The position numbers were made by a program, and so were the translations under genes. A stretch of DNA of 8,448 bases, from contig JAAFIG010000062.1 of the NCBI GenBank assembly GCA_013298595.1, positions 1 to 8,448 on the forward strand, in the 5' to 3' direction. Of the stretch, positions 196 through 8,448 are shown piece by piece. Source of the stretch: Deinococcales bacterium. GTDB taxonomy: Bacteria > Deinococcota > Deinococci > Deinococcales > JAAFIG01. Every line of letters starts with the position of its first letter. Position 1 is the first letter of the stretch. The notes below the pieces were generated by a model. It saw only the letters and a list, made by a program, of their open reading frames with translations, was not told the origin of the DNA and did no database searches.

Positions 196-272
196 CTTGG
201 GATAACTGTTTATACAGGTGTGTGAACTCGAGTACAAGAAAAAAGAAAACAACGTAGATTACCACATAAAAG

Positions 273-305
273 AGGATTCTTATTGTGCCTCACAATAAGA
301 ATCCT
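273..305 (-). terminator. Rho-independent terminator of lysA
   Basis: Bases 273-287 pair perfectly with 291-305 (15 bp) around a CCT loop. In the minus-strand transcript the hairpin lies about 40 nt past the lysA TAG and is followed by CTTTTAT, a short T-rich tail. In the plus direction it is followed by A-residues, so it is read as a terminator for lysA. The remaining spacer (131-272) carries one CTCGAG at 227 and no gene I can support. Confidence 0.7.
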
Positions 306-344
306 AAAAAGCTTAGAGCTAAAGTTTATTACCCTACTAAAAAT

Positions 345-1502
345 CTACTCGAGTTCATTACGTAGAATTTCTTCAATCGTATCGCGGCGACGTAAAACCA
401 CCCATTGCTGGTTCTCGAGTAAAACCTCGGTTGGACGCGGGCGGGTGAGGTAATGACTTGACATACTCGAGCCATACGCGCCTGCCACACTAATACAGAG
501 GATATCGCTAGGTTGCGGGTCTGCAAGTTGGACATCTCGAGCGAGGATATCGCCTGATTCACAAGCGGCTCCTGCAATATCGACAATGGTGTTTGCTCGA
601 GTTGAACTGAGATTCTCGACGGGATGGACTGCACTATAAAGCATAGGGCGCAATAATTCGGACATACCCGAATCAACAACGGCAAAAGCTCGAGCTGTGC
701 GTTTACGCTCTAGCACTTCGGTGAGCATGACTCCGCTTTCTGCAACCAACCAACGCCCTGGTTCAATCCAAAGTTCAGATGCACCAAAAGCATGGGCTGC
801 TTGATGCCCCAGTGTTGCCAGTGGTGCAAGATCAAATTGCAAACCAAAACCACCACCCATATCAAAGACTTGTCGAGCACCAATTTGTTTTGCTAAACCT
901 GCCATACGCTCGAGGGCAAGCGCATAATCATTAGGGTCTTCGATGCTGCTACCAATGTGCATTTGTAAACCAATCACATTTAAGCCGGCGCGTTCGGCAT
1001 TTTGAACCGCTGTTGGAACATCAGCCAGACTGACCCCAAATTTACTACTGGCATTGCCTGTTGCCAGATGATCGTGGGTTGAAACTTGCAAACCAGGATT
1101 GACCCGAATCAGGGTTTCTGCACCAGCCGCATATTTTGCAGCTCGAGGGGCTTCATCGGCATTATCAAGAATAATTCTGGCACCAATTTCCTTAGCTCTG
1201 ATGTAATCGGCATTGAGTTTCCCTGGTCCGTTCATCACGATTTGCCGACCTGTCGCACCTGCCAACACAGCTCGCTCGAGTTCACCACCAGACACAGCTT
1301 CAAAACCAACGCCAAGTGTATTAAGCCGCTTGAGGATACCCACATTTGGGTTGGCTTTCATGGCATAAAAGATTTTGGCAGTACCAAAAGCGGTTTGTAA
1401 ACGCTCGAGTTGGGTGGCAATGGTTTGCCAATCATAGGCGTACAAAGGTGTGCCGAACGTCTTAGCTGCTTGGAGTAAACGGGTTTTAAATTCTGGGCGC
1501 AT
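345..1502 (-). CDS. lysA: diaminopimelate decarboxylase
   Basis: LysA decarboxylates meso-diaminopimelate to L-lysine using pyridoxal phosphate, the last step of lysine synthesis in the cytoplasm. The 385-residue product has the fold-type III features in order: FYAMKANPN with the PLP lysine at K49, HIGSS at 182-186, the glycine-rich GGGF at 216-219 for phosphate binding, EPGR at 247-250, the active-site CESGD at 314-318, and GAYGSSMSSHY near 341-351 with the substrate/PLP tyrosine. Length is a little short of the usual ~410-420. The frame is open to 1544, but the start is placed at 1502 (MRPEF) because a TACAAT -10 box ends 7 nt before it and the longer form would overlap the divergent aldehyde dehydrogenase start. 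No Shine-Dalgarno is present, so the mRNA is probably leaderless. The gene carries about ten CTCGAG palindromes in all three codon phases. It appears monocistronic, with a hairpin terminator downstream. Confidence 0.95.
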   Translation of the reverse strand: MRPEFKTRLLQAAKTFGTPLYAYDWQTIATQLERLQTAFGTAKIFYAMKANPNVGILKRLNTLGVGFEAVSGGELERAVLAGATGRQIVMNGPGKLNADYIRAKEIGARIILDNADEAPRAAKYAAGAETLIRVNPGLQVSTHDHLATGNASSKFGVSLADVPTAVQNAERAGLNVIGLQMHIGSSIEDPNDYALALERMAGLAKQIGARQVFDMGGGFGLQFDLAPLATLGHQAAHAFGASELWIEPGRWLVAESGVMLTEVLERKRTARAFAVVDSGMSELLRPMLYSAVHPVENLSSTRANTIVDIAGAACESGDILARDVQLADPQPSDILCISVAGAYGSSMSSHYLTRPRPTEVLLENQQWVVLRRRDTIEEILRNELE

Positions 1503-1509
1503 GGTCTGG

Positions 1510-1515
1510 ATTGTA
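1510..1515 (-). promoter_or_regulatory. lysA -10 element (leaderless type)
   Basis: On the minus strand TACAAT (1515-1510) is followed by 7 nt and then the lysA ATG at 1502, so transcription would begin at or beside the A of the start codon. No convincing -35 is visible at the expected place (about 1533-1538), which falls between the -10 and start codon of the divergent gene. Confidence 0.65.
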
Positions 1516-1525
1516 CCTAAAATCG

Positions 1526-1531
1526 TATACT
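1526..1531 (+). promoter_or_regulatory. aldehyde dehydrogenase -10 element (leaderless type)
   Basis: TATACT is followed by 7 nt (GACAGGT) and then ATG at 1539. There is no separate leader or useful Shine-Dalgarno spacing. The expected -35 position would fall next to the lysA start codon and shows no TTGACA-like match. Its -10 is only 10 bp from the lysA -10 on the other strand. Confidence 0.65.
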
Positions 1532-1538
1532 GACAGGT

Positions 1539-3002
1539 ATGCAAACAAAACTTTTTATTGCTGGCGCTTGGGTTGAAGCAACAGGTGGTACGCTTGACGT
1601 GGTGAATCCAACCACTGAAGCTGTACTACACCAAGCTCCTGCTGCCAGTGCCGCCGATATTGATGTAGCTGTGCAAGCAGCTCGAATGGCTTTTAAAACT
1701 TGGAAACGTACTACTGGCACGCAACGAGCTGTGTACCTGCGTGCTATTGCCAAGAGCGTACAATCAAAAAAAGAAAGTTTAGCTCGGCTCGAGACACTGC
1801 AAAATGGTAAACCATTACCTGAAGCATTATGGGATATGGATGATGTGGCTGCTTGTTTTGAATATTATGCTGACTTAGCTGAACAATTAGATACAAGACA
1901 AGAGACCAGTATTGCTCTCCCCCATCCAGATTTTAGTAGTCTTGCCAGACTCGAGCCTGTTGGGGTTGTTGGGCAAATTATTCCGTGGAATTACCCATTG
2001 TTAATGCTGGCTTGGAAGGTTGCGCCAGCTTTAGCAGCCGGCTGTACAAGTGTACTGAAACCCTCAGAACTCACGCCATTAACTGCCCTCGAGCTTGGCA
2101 GCATTGCGCTCGAGGTTGAATTGCCCGCAGGTGTGCTGAACATTGTGACTGGTGGGCGCGAAGCAGGCGCAGCCCTTGCTAACCACGCGGGCATAGACAA
2201 ATTGGCATTTACAGGTAGTGTTGCGACAGGGCGTAGTGTTATGCAGGCTGCAACCGCAGGTATTAAAAATGTCACCCTCGAGTTAGGTGGCAAAAGCCCA
2301 ATACTGGTTTTTGATGATGCTGATCTCGAGCAAGCCATTGAATGGATTATGTTTGGCATTTTCTGGAATAAAGGCGAGGTTTGCAGTGCCACCAGCCGTT
2401 TACTTGTGCAAAGTGGTATTGCTCCAACACTCTTTGCCCGATTAAAGCTCGAGTGCGAAAAAATAAGCATTGGCGACCCACTCGAAGAGGGTGTGTTACT
2501 TGGACCACTGGTCTCGAAAGGGCAGTTCAACAAAGTCCAAAATTACTTTGAAATTGCCCAAACCGAAGGTTTAACCCTTTTAACAGGTGGCAAACGCCCA
2601 GCCCACCTTGCAACAGGGTTTTTCCTCGAGCCAACGGTTTACACCAATGTGCCAAGCACCAGCCGCTTATGGACAGAAGAAATATTTGGACCCGTACTGG
2701 TCGCCCAAACCTTTGATACCGCCATTCAAGCCTTGGAGCTTGCCAACAACAGCAACTTTGGATTGGGTGCAGCCGTACTTTCAACCAACCTTAAACGCGC
2801 CGAGCACATTGCTCGAGAACTCGAAGCAGGCATTGTTTGGATTAATTGCTCACAACCCACTTTCTGCCAAGCACCTTGGGGTGGTTTTAAACAAAGCGGT
2901 ATTGGACGTGAACTAGGACATTGGGGACTCGAGAATTACCTCGAGACCAAGCAAATCACCACGTATAACAGCAATAAACCGTGGGGTTGGTATATCAAAT
3001 AA
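1539..3002 (+). CDS. NAD(P)-dependent aldehyde dehydrogenase, ALDH10-like (betaine/amino-aldehyde type)
   Basis: This oxidises an aldehyde to its acid with NAD(P)+ in the cytoplasm. The 487-residue length is normal for the superfamily. Visible elements are PWNYP with the catalytic Asn at 151, the cofactor-binding LKPSE near 173-177 and FTGSVATG at 224-231, the general base E248 in LELGGKSP, and the nucleophile C282 in GEVCSATSRLLV. The C-terminal third has EEIFGPVL, NCSQP, APWGG and a terminal PWGWY; from memory, these and CSATSRLL are characteristic of plant-type ALDH10 betaine/amino-aldehyde dehydrogenases, suggesting aminoaldehyde or betaine aldehyde as substrate. Substrate is inference; no choline or polyamine gene is adjacent. 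The usual GQ before the catalytic VC/IC is GE here. The gene is divergent from lysA and followed two bases after its stop by a CTCGAG hairpin. CTCGAG mostly falls in phase as Leu-Glu in this gene. Confidence 0.9.
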   Translation: MQTKLFIAGAWVEATGGTLDVVNPTTEAVLHQAPAASAADIDVAVQAARMAFKTWKRTTGTQRAVYLRAIAKSVQSKKESLARLETLQNGKPLPEALWDMDDVAACFEYYADLAEQLDTRQETSIALPHPDFSSLARLEPVGVVGQIIPWNYPLLMLAWKVAPALAAGCTSVLKPSELTPLTALELGSIALEVELPAGVLNIVTGGREAGAALANHAGIDKLAFTGSVATGRSVMQAATAGIKNVTLELGGKSPILVFDDADLEQAIEWIMFGIFWNKGEVCSATSRLLVQSGIAPTLFARLKLECEKISIGDPLEEGVLLGPLVSKGQFNKVQNYFEIAQTEGLTLLTGGKRPAHLATGFFLEPTVYTNVPSTSRLWTEEIFGPVLVAQTFDTAIQALELANNSNFGLGAAVLSTNLKRAEHIARELEAGIVWINCSQPTFCQAPWGGFKQSGIGRELGHWGLENYLETKQITTYNSNKPWGWYIK

Positions 3003-3003
3003 C

Positions 3004-3033
3004 AGTAGGCTCGAGGTATGGCTCGAGCCTACT
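3004..3033. terminator. perfect hairpin between convergent genes, likely bidirectional terminator
   Basis: Bases 3004-3015 (AGTAGGCTCGAG) pair with 3022-3033 over a GTATGG loop, giving 12 perfect base pairs. It sits between the aldehyde dehydrogenase stop (3002) and the last roadblock stop (3050). Neither side has a good T-run (the plus side is AAAACCC then AATTTT), so termination is likely but not textbook. Each arm contains one CTCGAG palindrome. Confidence 0.55.
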
Positions 3034-3049
3034 AAAACCCTAATTTTAA

Positions 3050-3409
3050 TTATGATTTCGCTGCTTCAGATAAACGCGGCAAATACTTTTTGAGTTGAAA
3101 ACGCACCCGCCCGAGGTTCTGAGCGCTATCCAGTGTTGCCAGTAAACTGGCACCACCGACAGGGGCAAGCAGCACAGGACCTTCTTCAAATTCAACCATG
3201 ACTTGCGAGACTTCACCTTTACCAAAAAATTCGGCAAGGGCTTGAGAAGCCGCTAAACTCGAGGTAACAACACCACCAAGAAACTCGAGATCCACTGTTA
3301 CACTCGGCGCAGTAGCAGATTCGATAACAAAACCATCCTCTGAAACCAAAGCCACACTGGTCAGACCCTTAATGGTCAAAACTTCCTCGAGTAATGAGCG
3401 AATATCCAT
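3050..3409 (-). CDS. Roadblock/LC7 domain protein (third of three)
   Basis: A 119-residue single-domain protein opening MDIRSLLEEVLTIKG, then the typical roadblock strand pattern: a helix, TSVALVSEDGFVIES near residues 16-31 (hydrophobic strand, acidic/glycine turn, strand), a long helix with SSLAASQALAEFF, further strands around VMVEFEEGPVLLAPV, and a C-terminal helix ending in basic residues. Roadblock/LC7 proteins of the MglB type dimerise and often bind small Ras-like GTPases as activators or scaffolds; no GTPase gene is in the window. It lies 45 bp after the second roadblock gene and has its own TACACT box 7 nt before the ATG, so it may be transcribed both from the upstream gene and independently. 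It is the most canonical of the three. Confidence 0.8.
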   Translation of the reverse strand: MDIRSLLEEVLTIKGLTSVALVSEDGFVIESATAPSVTVDLEFLGGVVTSSLAASQALAEFFGKGEVSQVMVEFEEGPVLLAPVGGASLLATLDSAQNLGRVRFQLKKYLPRLSEAAKS

Positions 3410-3416
3410 AATTTGT

Positions 3417-3422
3417 AGTGTA
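3417..3422 (-). promoter_or_regulatory. internal -10 element for the third roadblock gene (leaderless type)
   Basis: On the minus strand TACACT (3422-3417) is followed by 7 nt (ACAAATT) and ATG at 3409. It lies in the 45-bp spacer after the second roadblock gene and matches the spacing seen at lysA and the aldehyde dehydrogenase. No clear -35 is visible. Confidence 0.55.
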
Positions 3423-3454
3423 CCTTTTTACAATGGGTTTTGTGGGTTATTTCC

Positions 3455-3805
3455 TTAGTTCTCGAGTTGCGAGACCAATTGCAATGATAAACGCGCCATT
3501 TCAACTTGTAGATTACGCGGGTCAGAACCGCGTTGCACTGCCACGGTTAAGGAATGCTGCAAACCAACCCGTAAAGAAATGACTTCAAAATGGTCAGTGG
3601 TAAAACTCCAGCGAAACAACTTACCACCACCTAAGTTTGTACCCGCAATACTGCTGGCACGGACTAAACTTGCGGTTTCAGCAGCCAAAATCTGACTGGA
3701 AATGACTGCTCCGCCAATGGATTCAATCTCGAGTCCACTATCACTGACCAGCACCGCTGTCAGCACATGCGGCATGGAAGCTAAACTGGCAAGCCATTGT
3801 CCCAT
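3455..3805 (-). CDS. Roadblock/LC7 domain-like protein (second of three)
   Basis: A 116-residue protein starting MGQWLASLASMP. It has the roadblock core pattern near residues 14-29 (LTAVLVSDSGLEIES), a central helix (about 35-52, QILAAETASLVRA), a strand rich region including FEVISLRV, and a C-terminal helix ending VSQLEN. The match to the family is weaker than for the third gene, but length, secondary-structure order and tandem position support it. Its ATG follows the TAA of the first roadblock gene with no gap, and no strong Shine-Dalgarno is in place, so translation is probably coupled to the upstream gene. No catalytic residues are expected; the role would be protein-protein interaction or GTPase regulation (inference). 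Confidence 0.65.
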   Translation of the reverse strand: MGQWLASLASMPHVLTAVLVSDSGLEIESIGGAVISSQILAAETASLVRASSIAGTNLGGGKLFRWSFTTDHFEVISLRVGLQHSLTVAVQRGSDPRNLQVEMARLSLQLVSQLEN

Positions 3806-4210
3806 TTAACTCAGCAATCCTTTCAATTGACGCGCAGTTTGCTCGAGTAGCAAGCGTGCTTTACCAATATTACCCGTTGGTTCTAGCATGAGGGAAACAA
3901 AGAAATCTTCGTTAATACTTTTGGTAAAACCAAGCACCATATCGGTTGCAATAAAAATTTCATGGACTTCACCTGCGCTTAGACTTGTTGCGTAAGCAGT
4001 ACGGGTATTGCGTAAAATATTGCTATGTTCAGCAACCACATTGCCTAAATTCAATTTGATTTCGTTGCTAAATTGCTCGATCAGTAAACCATCCATGCCA
4101 CCCAATGCTGCGCCAAGCGCACCATCGACACTCGAGACTAGGTTAGAAAGAATTTGGTCAATATCCACAGGTGAGCGCAGTGTAACACGAACCACCTGAT
4201 ATTGTCCCAA
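3806..4210 (-). CDS. Roadblock/LC7 domain protein (first of three)
   Basis: A 134-residue protein read from a TTG start at 4210 (MGQYQVVRVTL). After a ~15-residue N-terminal strand it shows a helix (VDIDQILSNLVSSVDG), then GALGAALGGMDGLLIEQ, which is the roadblock core, a long helix to about residue 80, strands around VHEIFIATD, and a C-terminal helix ending LKGLLS. TTG is preferred because an upstream TAA limits extension and the first bases TGGGACAAT repeat those of the next gene (ATGGGACAAT); a GTG at 4195 is the alternative. No convincing leaderless -10 or Shine-Dalgarno precedes it, so the start is the least certain of the set. Only 17 bp separate it from the divergent glycosidase, so its promoter must overlap that gene. 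Confidence 0.7.
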   Translation of the reverse strand: MGQYQVVRVTLRSPVDIDQILSNLVSSVDGALGAALGGMDGLLIEQFSNEIKLNLGNVVAEHSNILRNTRTAYATSLSAGEVHEIFIATDMVLGFTKSINEDFFVSLMLEPTGNIGKARLLLEQTARQLKGLLS

Positions 4211-4215
4211 GGAAG

Positions 4216-4221
4216 TATGCT
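4216..4221 (+). promoter_or_regulatory. glycosidase -10 element (leaderless type)
   Basis: TATGCT is followed by 6 nt (GAATAA) and ATG at 4228. The alternative ATG at 4246 has no -10-like sequence at this distance, so the box supports 4228 as the start. The expected -35 lies inside the first codons of the divergent roadblock gene. Confidence 0.55.
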
Positions 4222-4227
4222 GAATAA

Positions 4228-5703
4228 ATGATTAACAAATTGGTGATGGTAGACATTCCCGAACCAACCCTTTCCAAGGAAACTCGAGCGCATTTAATGC
4301 GTTTCCAACCTGGTGGCATTATTTTGTTTCGTAAAAACATTATTTCAATGCAACAAACCAAAGAATTAATCCTCGAGTTACAAGCCCTACTTGGCAAAGA
4401 TTTATTACTTGCTATTGACATGGAAGGTGGTGGTGTTTGGCGCACGAACTTCCTACCTTATGCCCCGAGTGCCATGAACCTTGGCTCAAGTAACAACCCT
4501 GCATTAGCCAGAGAGGTAGGTCAGATTGTTGGACGTGGTTTACGCAGCATGGGTATCAATTGGAATTTTGCCCCAGTGCTGGATATCAATAATAACCCAG
4601 CTAACCCTGTGATTTCAGATCGAAGTTTTGGTGAAAATCCTCAACGGGTTTCTGCGCTTGGTTTGGCTTGGGCTGACGGACTGATGAGCGCAGGTGTGGC
4701 GGCTTGCGCCAAGCATTTCCCTGGGCATGGCGACACGCACTTAGACTCGCACTTAGCCTTACCCACAGTCACCCGTAACCTCGAAGGACTCGAGGAATAC
4801 GAGCTTGTACCATTTAGAGCAGCTGTTGCCGCGCAACTCCCCAGCATCATGACTGCCCACATTATTTACCCCAGCATAGACCCAGACTTGCCCGCCACGT
4901 TATCCAAGAAAATCCTCACAGGATTACTGCGTGAACGTGCTGGTTACAATGGTGTCATTGTCACTGACAGTATGGGTATGCACGCCATAGACGAAAACTG
5001 GGGGCGTGGCGATGCAGCCATTCTCAGTGTCCAAGCTGGTTCAGATATGCTCGAGGCATTAGGGCGGCAAAGCGTACAAGAACAAACATTCTTAGCACTC
5101 GAGGAAGCCGCTAAGAACGGCAGTATTAGCTTAGCGCGGATAGATCAAAGCCTCGAGCGGTTACACGGCTTGGCTCGGCGTTTTCCAATTGCACCTCTCG
5201 AGTATCCCGAAAGTGTTATGCAAACCGATTCTTTGCACTTAAAACATGCTTGGCAACAAGGCATTGTTGCCTACAACAACCCAAAACCACCTACAATTGG
5301 TTCTCGAGTAACCGTTGTAGCCGCTGATGAAGTACCAGGGGAATACGTTTCTGAACTGGGTATTTCAGGTTCAAACCTCGTCGCTGCCCTCTCGAGTGCC
5401 TACCAAGTCTCCCCTATTTACTACCAACAAGACAACCCACTTGCCATACTCGAAGCAGTACAGAACGCCACAACCCCAATTATTTTTGCCAGCACCACCC
5501 GCAAACGCTTAACTGAAGAAGTTAAAGCACTGGCTCGAGCTGCCAAACCAGACTTACACCTTGCCCTATGGAATCCCTATAACGTCTTAGACGTTCCAGC
5601 CCCCGCAATTGTGACTTTTGGTTACCGCACCGAAGCCATTCAAGCTTTACTCGAGGTACTCAAAGGCGCAGCAATCACTGGTATTGCCCCAATTAGGCTA
5701 TAA
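4228..5703 (+). CDS. nagZ: family GH3 beta-N-acetylhexosaminidase, NagZ-like
   Basis: NagZ-type GH3 enzymes release N-acetylglucosamine from muropeptides or other GlcNAc glycosides during cell-wall turnover. In this 491-residue protein the family landmarks are PGGIILFRKNI (28-38), IDMEGG (63-68), KHFPGHGDT (162-170) followed by DSH at 173-175 (the Asp-His dyad that serves as acid/base in this subfamily), and VTDSMGM with the nucleophile D247. A C-terminal region of about 150 residues follows the TIM barrel, making it longer than single-domain proteobacterial NagZ (~340) and closer to two-domain versions. There is no signal peptide or lipobox, so a cytoplasmic recycling role is inferred. One oddity is GGG-V-W-R at 67-72 where the family usually has GGRVxR. 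It converges with hisD with an 8-bp gap and no terminator seen. The substrate is not proven, so the symbol is by subfamily. Confidence 0.82.
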   Translation: MINKLVMVDIPEPTLSKETRAHLMRFQPGGIILFRKNIISMQQTKELILELQALLGKDLLLAIDMEGGGVWRTNFLPYAPSAMNLGSSNNPALAREVGQIVGRGLRSMGINWNFAPVLDINNNPANPVISDRSFGENPQRVSALGLAWADGLMSAGVAACAKHFPGHGDTHLDSHLALPTVTRNLEGLEEYELVPFRAAVAAQLPSIMTAHIIYPSIDPDLPATLSKKILTGLLRERAGYNGVIVTDSMGMHAIDENWGRGDAAILSVQAGSDMLEALGRQSVQEQTFLALEEAAKNGSISLARIDQSLERLHGLARRFPIAPLEYPESVMQTDSLHLKHAWQQGIVAYNNPKPPTIGSRVTVVAADEVPGEYVSELGISGSNLVAALSSAYQVSPIYYQQDNPLAILEAVQNATTPIIFASTTRKRLTEEVKALARAAKPDLHLALWNPYNVLDVPAPAIVTFGYRTEAIQALLEVLKGAAITGIAPIRL

Positions 5704-5711
5704 ACAGTTCC

Positions 5712-7043
5712 CTAGTCCAACCGCGATTCAATCGCCCGAGCATGAGCTTCTAAACCCTCAGCTCGAGCCAGCGTTGTTGCATCAGCAGCCGTTCTGAGCA
5801 GCGTTTGCCGATTGACTGCGACAACACTGATGATTTTTTGAAAATCTCGTACATTGACCGGACTCGAGAATCTGGCTGTGCCCATGGTTGGCATGACATG
5901 GCTAGGTCCTGCGAGGTAATCCCCAAGAGCTTCCATACTGTTTTCACCAATAAAAACACCGCCAGCGTGTTTGATTTGTCCAAGCACAGCCCAAGGTTCT
6001 TGAATGAGCAGACAAAGGTGTTCTGGGGCATAGTGGTTTGCCAACTCGAGGGCAGTGCTGAGGTTTGGCTCGAGGATGAGTTTGCCGCGTTGTTGCCAAG
6101 CATTGCTTGCCCATGTGCGATTTGGTTCGGGCAGTGTTTCAATTTGTTGCTCGAGAGATTTGAGTGTTTGCTGGAGAATGTTGTGTGATAAGGCAATCAG
6201 TACAGGTTCAGCATCCACATGCTCGGCTTGGGCAAGCATATCAGCCGCGACATGCACTGGATTCGCGCTGTCATCGGCAAGAACCAGGGTTTCGGTCGGT
6301 CCAGGCAAGGAAATAATACCCACTTGCCCATACACTTGGCGCATGGCAAGTACAGTATAAATATTGCCTGGTCCACCAATTTTATCGACTTTAGGCACGG
6401 TTTCAGTCCCAAATGCCATCGCTCCAATTGCCACAGCTCCACCCAGCGCAAACACCCGTGTCACACCACTCTCAAGAGCAGCTACCAAGGTCGTTGGGTC
6501 TACCAAACCATTCTTTCCCGCAGGGCTACAGAGCATAATTTCAGGCACACCTGCTACACCAGCAATCACCGCTGTGTGAATCACACTCGAGGCAAGCGGA
6601 TTTGCCCCAGCAGGTGCGTACAAACCGACGCGTTCAATCGGGCGTACCAATTGCCCGAGCGCACCTTGGCTGGTGTGCTCGAGGAAACCATGAACTGGTT
6701 GTTGTAAATGAAAATCTCGGACGCGTTGCACGGCATGCCGAATGGCTTTTAACAAATTTGCTGGCATAGCATCTCTGGCAGCCAGCCATTGTTCTCGAGG
6801 AACTTCGATACCTGCAACAGGCAGACCATCAAGTTTTGTGGCGTACTCGAGCACAGCTGCATCGCCACGCATCTGAATTTCTTGCAGAATGCGTTTCACG
6901 GCTTGTTCAGGTGTTAATGCTTCGCCATATAAAGCCTGATTGCGCTCGAGAATGGCATTGGTTATTGCAGGTTGACCAAATGTTCGGGTAAGGGAGCGTT
7001 TTGCGGCTTCGCCTTGCAAGATAAGAGGATGCTCGAGTTTCAC
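5712..7043 (-). CDS. hisD: histidinol dehydrogenase
   Basis: HisD oxidises L-histidinol to L-histidine in two NAD-linked steps, the end of histidine synthesis. The 443-residue product (usual ~430) shows the NAD-binding region VGLYAPAG near 139-146, VPKVDKIGGPGN at 216-227, LPGPTE at 246-251, the zinc-ligand pair Q272/H275 in AQAEH, the catalytic E341-H342 in APEHL, D375 in GDYLAGPSH and H434 near the C-terminus, matching the known ligands (Q, H, D, H) of the E. coli enzyme. The start is set at GTG 7043 because TATATT ends 6 nt before it; the frame is open to 7076 but those residues (including FFVYIHN) are not typical of HisD. Departures from the common signature are IIS where IDx precedes the GP[ST]E motif, and AEHV for AEHD. 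No other his genes are adjacent, so the pathway is scattered here. Confidence 0.92.
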   Translation of the reverse strand: MKLEHPLILQGEAAKRSLTRTFGQPAITNAILERNQALYGEALTPEQAVKRILQEIQMRGDAAVLEYATKLDGLPVAGIEVPREQWLAARDAMPANLLKAIRHAVQRVRDFHLQQPVHGFLEHTSQGALGQLVRPIERVGLYAPAGANPLASSVIHTAVIAGVAGVPEIMLCSPAGKNGLVDPTTLVAALESGVTRVFALGGAVAIGAMAFGTETVPKVDKIGGPGNIYTVLAMRQVYGQVGIISLPGPTETLVLADDSANPVHVAADMLAQAEHVDAEPVLIALSHNILQQTLKSLEQQIETLPEPNRTWASNAWQQRGKLILEPNLSTALELANHYAPEHLCLLIQEPWAVLGQIKHAGGVFIGENSMEALGDYLAGPSHVMPTMGTARFSSPVNVRDFQKIISVVAVNRQTLLRTAADATTLARAEGLEAHARAIESRLD

Positions 7044-7049
7044 GTTGTG

Positions 7050-7055
7050 AATATA
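7050..7055 (-). promoter_or_regulatory. hisD -10 element (leaderless type)
   Basis: On the minus strand TATATT (7055-7050), preceded by TGTG, is followed by 6 nt (CACAAC) and GTG at 7043. This supports the shorter HisD start and a leaderless mRNA. No TTGACA-like -35 is visible. The upstream spacer (7056-7155) holds a strand-asymmetric purine-rich run but no gene. Confidence 0.6.
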
Positions 7056-7155
7056 CACAAAAAATTTCAGAGACACATGGGCAGCATGTATCTCTGATGG
7101 GGATGGGAAGAAAGAGGAAGTTAAATGAGGAAGGGTGAAAGTCGAAAAGGGAAAG

Positions 7156-7174
7156 ATAAAACACCATGTTTTAT
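7156..7174 (-). terminator. weak hairpin terminator after the 58-residue gene
   Basis: ATAAAACA (7156-7163) pairs with TGTTTTAT (7167-7174) around CCA. It lies directly after the TGA of the small gene in the transcript and is followed by CTTTCCCTTTTC. The stem is AT-rich, so the call is tentative. Confidence 0.4.
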
Positions 7175-7178
7175 TGGC

Positions 7179-7355
7179 TCAAGGTAAGACGAGTTGTTGT
7201 TCGTTCTCGAGTTTGGCTGCCCAGTTTTTCAGGGCATTGGCAATACGGCGGCGTAATGAAGGTTGGGTTGGTGTGCTGCGAGCAATGTATGCCTCGAGAC
7301 GCAGTTGAATAAGGTGGCTACGACCGTTTTCCAAAAGTTGTGAGTAGTGGTTCAT
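7179..7355 (-). CDS. 58-residue basic helical protein of unknown function
   Basis: The product opens MNHYSQLLENG and is dominated by predicted helices; residues about 35-50 (RRRIANALKNWAAKLE) form a basic amphipathic helix. It has no signal peptide, cysteines or recognisable catalytic motif. I do not recognise a named family; small proteins of this general shape with an Arg-rich C-terminal amphipathic helix occur in Chloroflexota and Actinomycetota (from memory, not checked). The frame is open to 7403, but the ATG at 7355 is chosen because AGGAGG sits 6 nt before it and a TTGACA/TATATT promoter lies just upstream. Unlike its neighbours it uses a Shine-Dalgarno. It is transcribed in the same direction as rnj but separated from it by a terminator, so it is likely its own unit. 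Confidence 0.7.
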   Translation of the reverse strand: MNHYSQLLENGRSHLIQLRLEAYIARSTPTQPSLRRRIANALKNWAAKLENEQQLVLP

Positions 7356-7361
7356 GTGGTG

Positions 7362-7367
7362 CCTCCT
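7362..7367 (-). promoter_or_regulatory. perfect Shine-Dalgarno of the 58-residue gene
   Basis: AGGAGG on the minus strand is separated by CACCAC from ATG at 7355. It fixes the start of the small gene and is the strongest ribosome binding site in the window. The predicted transcription start is at or beside its first base. Confidence 0.75.
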
Positions 7368-7373
7368 GAAGTA

Positions 7374-7403
7374 AATATAAAACAAAAACTTATAATTTGT
7401 CAA
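7374..7403 (-). promoter_or_regulatory. sigma-70 promoter of the 58-residue gene
   Basis: TTGACA (7403-7398) and TATATT (7379-7374) are 18 nt apart on the minus strand in a strongly AT-rich spacer. The start would fall near 7367, giving a leader of only about 12 nt that is mostly the Shine-Dalgarno. This is the only gene here with both consensus -35 and -10 hexamers ahead of a clear start. Confidence 0.65.
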
Positions 7404-7478
7404 GTCTTGTTTTCAATTGATTAAGATTTTTGATTCTTGAGTAAGAAATAGAAATCAAAAAATATTAAATAGAAAAAA

Positions 7479-7501
7479 GAAGTGGCTTGAGTTGCCACTT
7501 C
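7479..7501 (-). terminator. Rho-independent terminator of rnj
   Basis: GAAGTGGC (7479-7486) pairs with GCCACTTC (7494-7501) around a 7-nt loop. In the minus transcript the stem is followed at once by six T residues (plus-strand A-run 7473-7478). It lies about 30 nt after the rnj stop and separates rnj from the small gene. Confidence 0.85.
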
Positions 7502-7530
7502 CTTTTGAATTTTCGTTTTTGCTTTTATTC

Positions 7531-8448
7531 CTACTCCACCACAACGGGAATAATCATCGGATTACGCCCAGTGGCTTTGCGGACAAAACGCCTCACCATA
7601 TAATAGACATCGTCGCGCACAGCTTCAAGATGCTTTTTTTCTCTAGCACCTTTCTCGAGCACAGCAATCGTTTGGTCTTTGATCGTGTCAAACAGTTCTT
7701 GATTGGCATCTATAAAGCCTCGAGAAGCAATTTCGGCATGAGGATGTGGCGATAAAACACAACCAAGCACCAACACACCATCGCCCGCCATGCTTAACCG
7801 ATCCTCGAGAATACTGTCATTAACATCGCCCACACCAAGTCCGTCTACATAGACTGCACCTGCTGGGACAGTACCAACCACTTTGAAATCATCTTTGGAA
7901 ACATGGACAACGTCGCCGTTTTTCGCAATGATGGTGCGTTTTGGCGGGTTTGGAATACCTTCTGCCAACCATTGATGATTGATTTGTTGGCGTGGCTCGC
8001 CATGAAAAGGTAAAAACCATTTGGCTTGAGCAAGATTCAAAATCATTTTTAATTCTTCTTGACTGCCATGCCCACTGGCATGAACTTTGTAATTTGGTGG
8101 GTAAAAGACTTTAGCACCTTTAAGGTACAGGCTATTAATCACAACATTAATCGCTTCTTCGTTACCAGGAATTGGGCTGCTCGAGAGAATCACGGTATCG
8201 CCATGTTTAATACTGAGGCGCGGATGATTACCTGCGGCTAATCTCGAGAGCACGCTCATTGGTTGCCCTTGGCTACCTGTGCAAATAAAAACAGCTTGAC
8301 TGGCTTGTAAATCAGCAAATTCATCGGTGCTAATCAAGCGATCTTTGAGCGTCATATAACCAAGTTCTTGAGCGATCTCGGCGTATTTGTGCATACTCCG
8401 CCCTTCATCACCACCCGACGATTGTGCTTCTCGGCAATACGAATAATA
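7531..8448 (-). CDS. rnj: ribonuclease J, C-terminal part, with apparent frameshift near 8400
   Basis: RNase J is a metallo-beta-lactamase/beta-CASP enzyme with endonuclease and 5'-3' exonuclease activity in mRNA decay and RNA maturation. The continuous frame (7531-8394, 287 residues) carries the beta-CASP motif TGSQGQPMSVLSRLA (39-53), SSPIPGNE (72-79), VHASGHGSQEEL (104-115), and PFHGE (129-133) containing the last metal-binding His, then the C-terminal domain ending RKATGRNPMIIPVVVE. The N-terminal HxHxDH half lies beyond the right edge. Upstream of the apparent start, the homologous residues (IIRIAEKHNRRVVMKG) continue in a different frame to the window edge; joining them to RSMHKYAEIA restores the conserved GRSM sequence and requires one extra base at 8400/8401. 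This is either an assembly or sequencing deletion, or a real inactivating mutation. ATG 8394 is therefore not a true start. Confidence 0.9.
   Translation of the reverse strand, partial: YYSYCREAQSSGGDEGRSMHKYAEIAQELGYMTLKDRLISTDEFADLQASQAVFICTGSQGQPMSVLSRLAAGNHPRLSIKHGDTVILSSSPIPGNEEAINVVINSLYLKGAKVFYPPNYKVHASGHGSQEELKMILNLAQAKWFLPFHGEPRQQINHQWLAEGIPNPPKRTIIAKNGDVVHVSKDDFKVVGTVPAGAVYVDGLGVGDVNDSILEDRLSMAGDGVLVLGCVLSPHPHAEIASRGFIDANQELFDTIKDQTIAVLEKGAREKKHLEAVRDDVYYMVRRFVRKATGRNPMIIPVVVE

Follow-up and report, generated by a model that had tools for sequence, protein, structure and literature searches.

The hexamer CTCGAG is a highly iterated palindrome (HIP) in a lineage of uncultured Deinococcota, where it recurs about six times per kb. 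The window in which it was noticed, 8448 bp long, is a whole contig (C59) of the 4.58-Mb draft genome G000. Sixty exact copies span positions 227-8248, in agreement with the about 60 announced by a sequence-only reading of this DNA, against 0.9 +/- 0.95 expected and a maximum of 5 in 200 dinucleotide-preserving shuffles. The excess is ~67-fold, and the earlier estimate of about 30-fold, based on an expectation of about 2, was too low. No comparable palindromic hexamer was found in the window besides CTCGAG; its one-mismatch neighbours occur there near expectation and TCGA outside CTCGAG at the expected level. The claim that all codon phases and intergenic DNA are used holds: phase 0 (Leu-Glu) accounts for 36 sites, phase 1 for 11 and phase 2 for 8, and of the five outside the annotated open reading frames (ORFs) two (7206 and 7293) fall, as judged by eye, within an ORF of 57 aa, which leaves three that are truly intergenic. 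The host genes have ordinary, unrelated housekeeping functions.

The count in the entire genome, proposed earlier as a check, was unambiguous, and the description as a palindrome akin to the cyanobacterial HIP1, with a different hexamer, is upheld. G000 contains 27,159 copies of CTCGAG (5.9 per kb) and 15 of the reversed control GAGCTC, and a 398-kb sample contains 2348 versus 43 expected from a first-order Markov model (observed/expected, O/E, about 53). Density is near-uniform, with a mean of 28.8 and a maximum of 44 sites over 203 5-kb windows; there was no outlier window of the kind expected for clustering at an origin in 1.0 Mb of G000, a stretch in which the position of dnaA was not pinpointed. 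Under our working labels (f1-f5), the window's genome belongs to family f1 together with G005, G006 and G007, and G001-G004 make up the sister family f2; all are drafts, 91-96% complete except for G002 (58%). The other f1 members carry 26,619-28,178 copies per genome and G001, G002 and G003 carry 13,552-21,868, whereas G004 is not enriched (683 versus 1525 for the reversed control). The closest named relatives, two 'Deinococcales bacterium' bins (L017 and L018), have 6.3 and 8.5 sites per kb. Enrichment is moderate in Meiothermus-like genomes, including that of the cultured Allomeiothermus silvanus (G022), the plasmids of which show an O/E of 2.8-3.8; G022 was assigned to this species through a 100% plasmid match. 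Enrichment is weak or absent in genus g13, which we take to be Thermus (ratio to the control near 1:1), in two Deinococcus plasmids (O/E 0.8-0.9) and in 78 proteobacterial control loci (O/E 0.8). The enrichment is equally strong at 45% and at 60% GC. Viral contigs with CTCGAG, among the matches listed, are mostly high in GC and have a lower density. The literature searched, in which subscription journals were mostly not covered, yielded no account of an iterated CTCGAG in Deinococcota.

The exact hexamer is maintained at this density by a pressure that acts on double-stranded DNA uniformly and irrespective of position. Synonymous shuffling within the genes of the 398-kb sample left enrichments of 8.3-, 9.2- and 19-fold in phases 0, 1 and 2, and in the same sample the intergenic density (5.5 per kb) equals that of coding DNA (6.0 per kb). 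The density does not change near the start or end of a gene, nor does it differ among convergent, divergent and co-directional gaps, and little information resides in the 12 bases that flank a site on each side, with hardly any flanking preference. This supports the proposal that the pressure acts on the DNA and not on proteins or codons. Because phases 1 and 2, over synonymous shuffles, and intergenic DNA are enriched too, codon bias or a Leu-Glu peptide as the cause is excluded, and with it the outcome that had been named as fatal to that proposal, enrichment in one phase through Leu-Glu codon bias.

Occupancy is close to the ceiling permitted by the proteins, and the excess of Leu-Glu takes it partly past that ceiling. 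In 885 genes, 67% of the Leu-Glu pairs, 63% of the phase-1 and 37% of the phase-2 opportunities are occupied. On the basis of codon use elsewhere, only 1.7% of the Leu-Glu pairs of G000 would be written as CTCGAG; in G004 the figure is 7% versus 15% expected. Leu-Glu is also the most over-represented dipeptide (2.38-fold), with 4998 occurrences in G000 versus 2117 of Glu-Leu, and 428 were observed versus 178 expected in reciprocal-best orthologues; G004 has no such excess. At position 1950 of the window the site encodes Leu-Glu in an aldehyde dehydrogenase, at a place occupied by Arg-Glu or Lys-Glu in 74 of 78 relatives. The motif has therefore altered proteins, its pressure on the DNA being sufficient to shift the use of amino acids.

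Copies of CTCGAG repel each other at short range. Distances below 30 bp are depleted over 1.02 Mb. With the real synonymous opportunities as the null, the ratio of observed to null in G000 is 0.28 at 6-12 bp (z -11.8), rises through 0.38, 0.67 and 0.80 to 0.87 at 30-40 bp, and returns to 1 by 40 bp. Spacings of 60-200 bp are in excess and gaps of 500-1000 bp are scarce. Seven other palindromes and GC-matched (4-GC) inverted hexamer pairs showed no short-range depletion, which makes hairpin avoidance an unlikely cause. It follows that the sites do not evolve independently, contrary to what a per-site mutational process would predict. In our reading the repulsion reflects either the footprint of a bound protein or the smaller return from a second site close to the first, both of which predict such non-independence; interference between sites helps to separate a simple mutational bias from binding or selection.

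The fate of individual sites was followed in 67 orthologues of G000 and G005, in which 281 of 457 sites are conserved (61.5%) at a fourfold-site identity of 0.43. CTCGAG ranks first in conservation among common hexamers, the mean of all hexamers being 19%. The conservation of sites between relatives that had been suggested as a check is thus present, but it is mostly explained by occupancy: the sharing is for the most part saturation, with some memory. Where a Leu-Glu pair is not written as CTCGAG, the forms one transition away are over-represented (CTTGAG 5.8-fold, CTCGAA 2.9-fold), and the transversion neighbours are at or below expectation. This halo indicates that sites decay by ordinary mutation and that near-matches are not rapidly converted. 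Low-GC islands are nearly free of sites (polysaccharide genes at 75.3-83.2 kb of contig C34 and, in part, 265-271 kb of C1, in G000), as is a low-GC methyltransferase cassette; foreign DNA thus gains sites slowly.

We give roughly even chances to the broad claim that an exact reader drives position-independent selection, or drive, on CTCGAG. The reader would be a homodimer, either an enzyme or another DNA-binding protein, that recognises the hexamer exactly and in a symmetric manner; it would belong to the core genome of f1 and f2, with a weaker version in other parts of the phylum. A small advantage would attach to each site, of a scaled strength of about 4-5 if calculated as the log odds of occupancy versus background with equilibrium assumed. 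The reader might use the sites chromosome-wide, for nucleoid architecture, break repair or the marking of self DNA, or it might drive their spread. Several observations weigh against such a reader. Among Leu-Glu pairs kept in both G000 and G005, 194 sites are shared versus about 173 expected under independence, and since occupancy alone gives much sharing, site conservation is weak evidence for selection site by site. Individual selection on 27,000 sites is demanding, which makes drive equally plausible. The repulsion in G005 is weaker and shorter than in G000, being confined to distances below 18 bp, and no gene was pinned down as the reader.

More tentatively, the exact reader could be a core protein that is not a methyltransferase and that reads CTCGAG every 100-200 bp along the chromosome, the demand for sites having overwritten protein sequence, as the occupation of two-thirds of the Leu-Glu pairs and the Leu-Glu excess would suggest. 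If true, this would amount to a code of a new type, for genome architecture or for self-identity.

To our knowledge, cyanobacteria provide the only clear HIP-type case so far, and we know of no settled cause for HIP1; nor do we know of a report of a dipeptide excess of the Leu-Glu type, or of motif-specific short-range repulsion, for HIP1. The present genomes thus add a second phylum, with a palindrome that is denser and, as a hexamer, simpler. Like a HIP, CTCGAG is strongly over-represented across the genome and occurs in unrelated genes, in all reading frames and in intergenic DNA. It falls outside the strict definition of HIP1 (GCGATCGC, cyanobacteria), being a different hexamer in Deinococcota. 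HIP1 and the alternate HIPs are likewise exact palindromes found genome-wide in unrelated genes, specific to lineages and lost in some relatives (Elhai 2015, PMC4390886). Their flanks differ between lineages, a feature paralleled in G001, which favours the extended form CCTCGAGG (104 of 214 sites, L187-L189). Apart from the phylum and the hexamer, the difference lies in density, HIP1 having about 0.5-2.5 copies per kb versus about 6 for CTCGAG.

This likeness invites the explanation that Elhai proposed for cyanobacteria: an orphan methyltransferase marks CTCGAG, and methylation-directed repair or segregation creates and keeps the sites. We find it rather doubtful here. An exact palindromic hexamer with scarcely any preference in its flanks does look like the target of a methyltransferase, and in cyanobacteria each genome in which a sequence was highly over-represented had one or more putative methyltransferases able to methylate it (PMC4390886). 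Moreover, the same hexamer is reported as the target of a conserved orphan methyltransferase in Nocardia (Blow 2016, PMC4752239); there, the motif clusters between dnaA and a DNA polymerase III gene (PMC4752239), in contrast to the near-uniform density in G000. Our search covered five families, PF07669, PF01555, PF00145, PF02086 and PF02384, and in none of these was a methyltransferase found that is common to all enriched genomes, drafts as they are, in apparent contrast to the HIP-bearing cyanobacteria. Furthermore, Elhai's saturating repair model predicts spacing on the scale of kilobases, not of 30 bp. MutH and Vsr are absent from f1; of the 13 genomes searched, a single one has Vsr (G001) and a single one MutH (G033).

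G000 itself has six methyltransferases of the five families, none with orthologues in all enriched genomes. L114, a TaqI-like N6 methyltransferase on contig C11, has no orthologue in any other examined genome of the phylum. L120 adjoins a NotI-family endonuclease, L132 lies beside GmrSD and HEPN genes in a 31%-GC cassette that lacks CTCGAG, and L257 sits in a lower-GC cassette with a DUF5817-like partner. L097 shares 37% identity with a G003 homologue, which in turn shares about 40% with homologues in the non-enriched G004. In favour of the model, a C5 methyltransferase (L227/L229/L228) is common to G000, G005 and G003 and in G000 lies within DNA of native composition. This M.HhaI-like protein was not found in G006, G007 or G001, and in G003 it adjoins an HNH endonuclease. 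The suggestion of a solitary CTCGAG methyltransferase is accordingly left without support, the six being restriction-modification or accessory enzymes or not common to all enriched relatives. As specificity is not readable from sequence, the methyltransferase model is weakened rather than refuted, and the reader is probably none of the recognisable accessory methyltransferases. The graded series of relatives, from strong enrichment in f1 and most of f2 through the Meiothermus-like genomes to Thermus, the Deinococcus plasmids and G004, makes the model directly testable. On contig C34 of G000 (L147:13649-15495), a methyltransferase and the NotI-family endonuclease beside it form a probable restriction-modification pair.

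Restriction-modification systems of the XhoI/PaeR7I type share the recognition sequence. The expectation that an unprotected enzyme of this specificity would be missing was confirmed: the XhoI-family endonuclease PF04555, the cognate enzyme of such a system, was undetectable in all enriched genomes of f1 and f2. Within the phylum it was found only in G012-G014, plus a broken copy in G108, and its presence accompanies fewer sites (1390-1947 in G012-G014 versus 3640-4718 in the congeners G009-G011, which lack it).

Another source of drive would be DNA uptake, in which a competence machinery favours DNA with CTCGAG and recombination spreads it. Uptake motifs, such as the uptake signal sequence (USS) of the Pasteurellaceae and the DNA uptake sequence (DUS) of Neisseria, are non-palindromic, 9-12 bp long and present at about 1 per kb. 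They resemble CTCGAG in being short motifs with thousands of copies and possible drive, but CTCGAG is palindromic, exact and about six times denser. USS are reported to be evenly spaced (PMC1939737), and uptake motifs tolerate mismatches (PMC1939737), a form that the exact hexamer does not share. The uniform accumulation independent of function, the foreign islands without sites and the diminishing returns expected for a second site on one fragment are all in line with uptake, as is efficient natural transformation within the phylum, known from Thermus thermophilus (PMC6561018). Yet Thermus (g13), the phylum's model of competence, is hardly enriched, and a repulsion scale of 30 bp would need very short recombining fragments. 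Uptake drive is therefore unlikely in our view.

Quite unlikely, too, is a pure bias of mutation or gene conversion, by which near-matches would become CTCGAG individually and without function, a biased mutational process having been among the possibilities first raised. Such a bias would account for enrichment that is independent of position and equal in coding and intergenic DNA. It is difficult to reconcile with copies that repel each other at short range when other palindromes do not, since this CTCGAG-specific repulsion argues against a purely mutational origin, or with transition neighbours that are in excess rather than consumed; the lack of Vsr in f1 also counts against it. An artefact of assembly or linkers, a peptide motif Leu-Glu or codon bias has a negligible chance of being the explanation. 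Phase 0 is indeed used most often, but enrichment is strong in phases 1 and 2 and in intergenic DNA as well, and the pattern recurs in unrelated housekeeping genes and in several genomes that were binned separately.

In the window, the first copy (227..232) is intergenic. Downstream of the following gene lies a near-perfect inverted repeat (273-305, an opposite-strand self-match), likely a terminator. That gene (345..1544, minus strand; PF02784/PF00278) encodes a lysA-like PLP-dependent decarboxylase and holds ten sites, at 348, 414, 909, 1275 and 1404 in phase 0, at 536, 596, 689 and 1142 in phase 1 and at 466 in phase 2. The aldehyde dehydrogenase gene (1539..3002, plus strand; PF00171) has eleven: 1788, 1950, 2088, 2109, 2277, 2325, 2448, 2625, 2928 and 2940 in phase 0 and 2812 in phase 1. 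Two intergenic copies at 3010 and 3022 (3010..3027) lie between convergent genes and, by eye, contribute to the stem of an inverted repeat that resembles a terminator (3005-3035). Three successive small ORFs follow on the minus strand (3050-4210). The first, a Roadblock/LC7 protein by Pfam match, has sites at 3258 (phase 2), 3284 and 3386 (phase 0); the other two, similar in size and without Pfam match, have sites at 3461 and 3728 (phase 0) and at 3842 (phase 0) and 4131 (phase 2).

The glycoside hydrolase family 3 gene (4228..5703, plus strand; PF00933) contains eleven sites (4283, 4372, 4789, 5050, 5098, 5152, 5197, 5303, 5391, 5534 and 5650), as does the histidinol dehydrogenase gene (5712..7076, minus strand; PF00815), at 5762, 5863, 6045, 6069, 6150, 6586, 6678, 6794, 6846, 6945 and 7032. 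The copies at 7206 and 7293 (7206..7298) lie in the probable 57-aa ORF, read by eye on the minus strand. In this stretch (7181-7437) the start and upstream region of the ORF are 80% identical to positions 1881-1996 of contig C50 of G000, and the ORF is perhaps a member of a small repeated gene family. The ribonuclease J gene (7531..8448, minus strand; PF22505/PF17770), truncated by the contig end, has five sites (7654, 7719, 7804, 8180 and 8243). Contigs C11 and C7 begin with copies of the two window ends (1-126 and 8282-8448; 99-100% identity), which are probably assembly-graph overlaps.

Other short palindromes are avoided in these genomes. The window lacks GGCC altogether, where 32 copies would be expected; this tetramer has an O/E of 0.01 in the 398 kb of G000 and is equally avoided in G005 and G006. 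In the same 398 kb CCGG has an O/E of 0.10; other avoided palindromes (observed/expected) are TTCGAA (3/133), GGCGCC (1/79) and GAGCTC (1/58). With so many palindromes avoided, CTCGAG is the lone strong exception. GTAC is over-represented 1.6-2.3-fold in samples of G000, G005, G006, G007 and G001, and 1.3-fold in G004. Finally, a single ORF of 6338 codons on contig C4 of G000 (53002-72015; L303 from 13002 onward) has a higher GC content (0.51) and half the density of CTCGAG.

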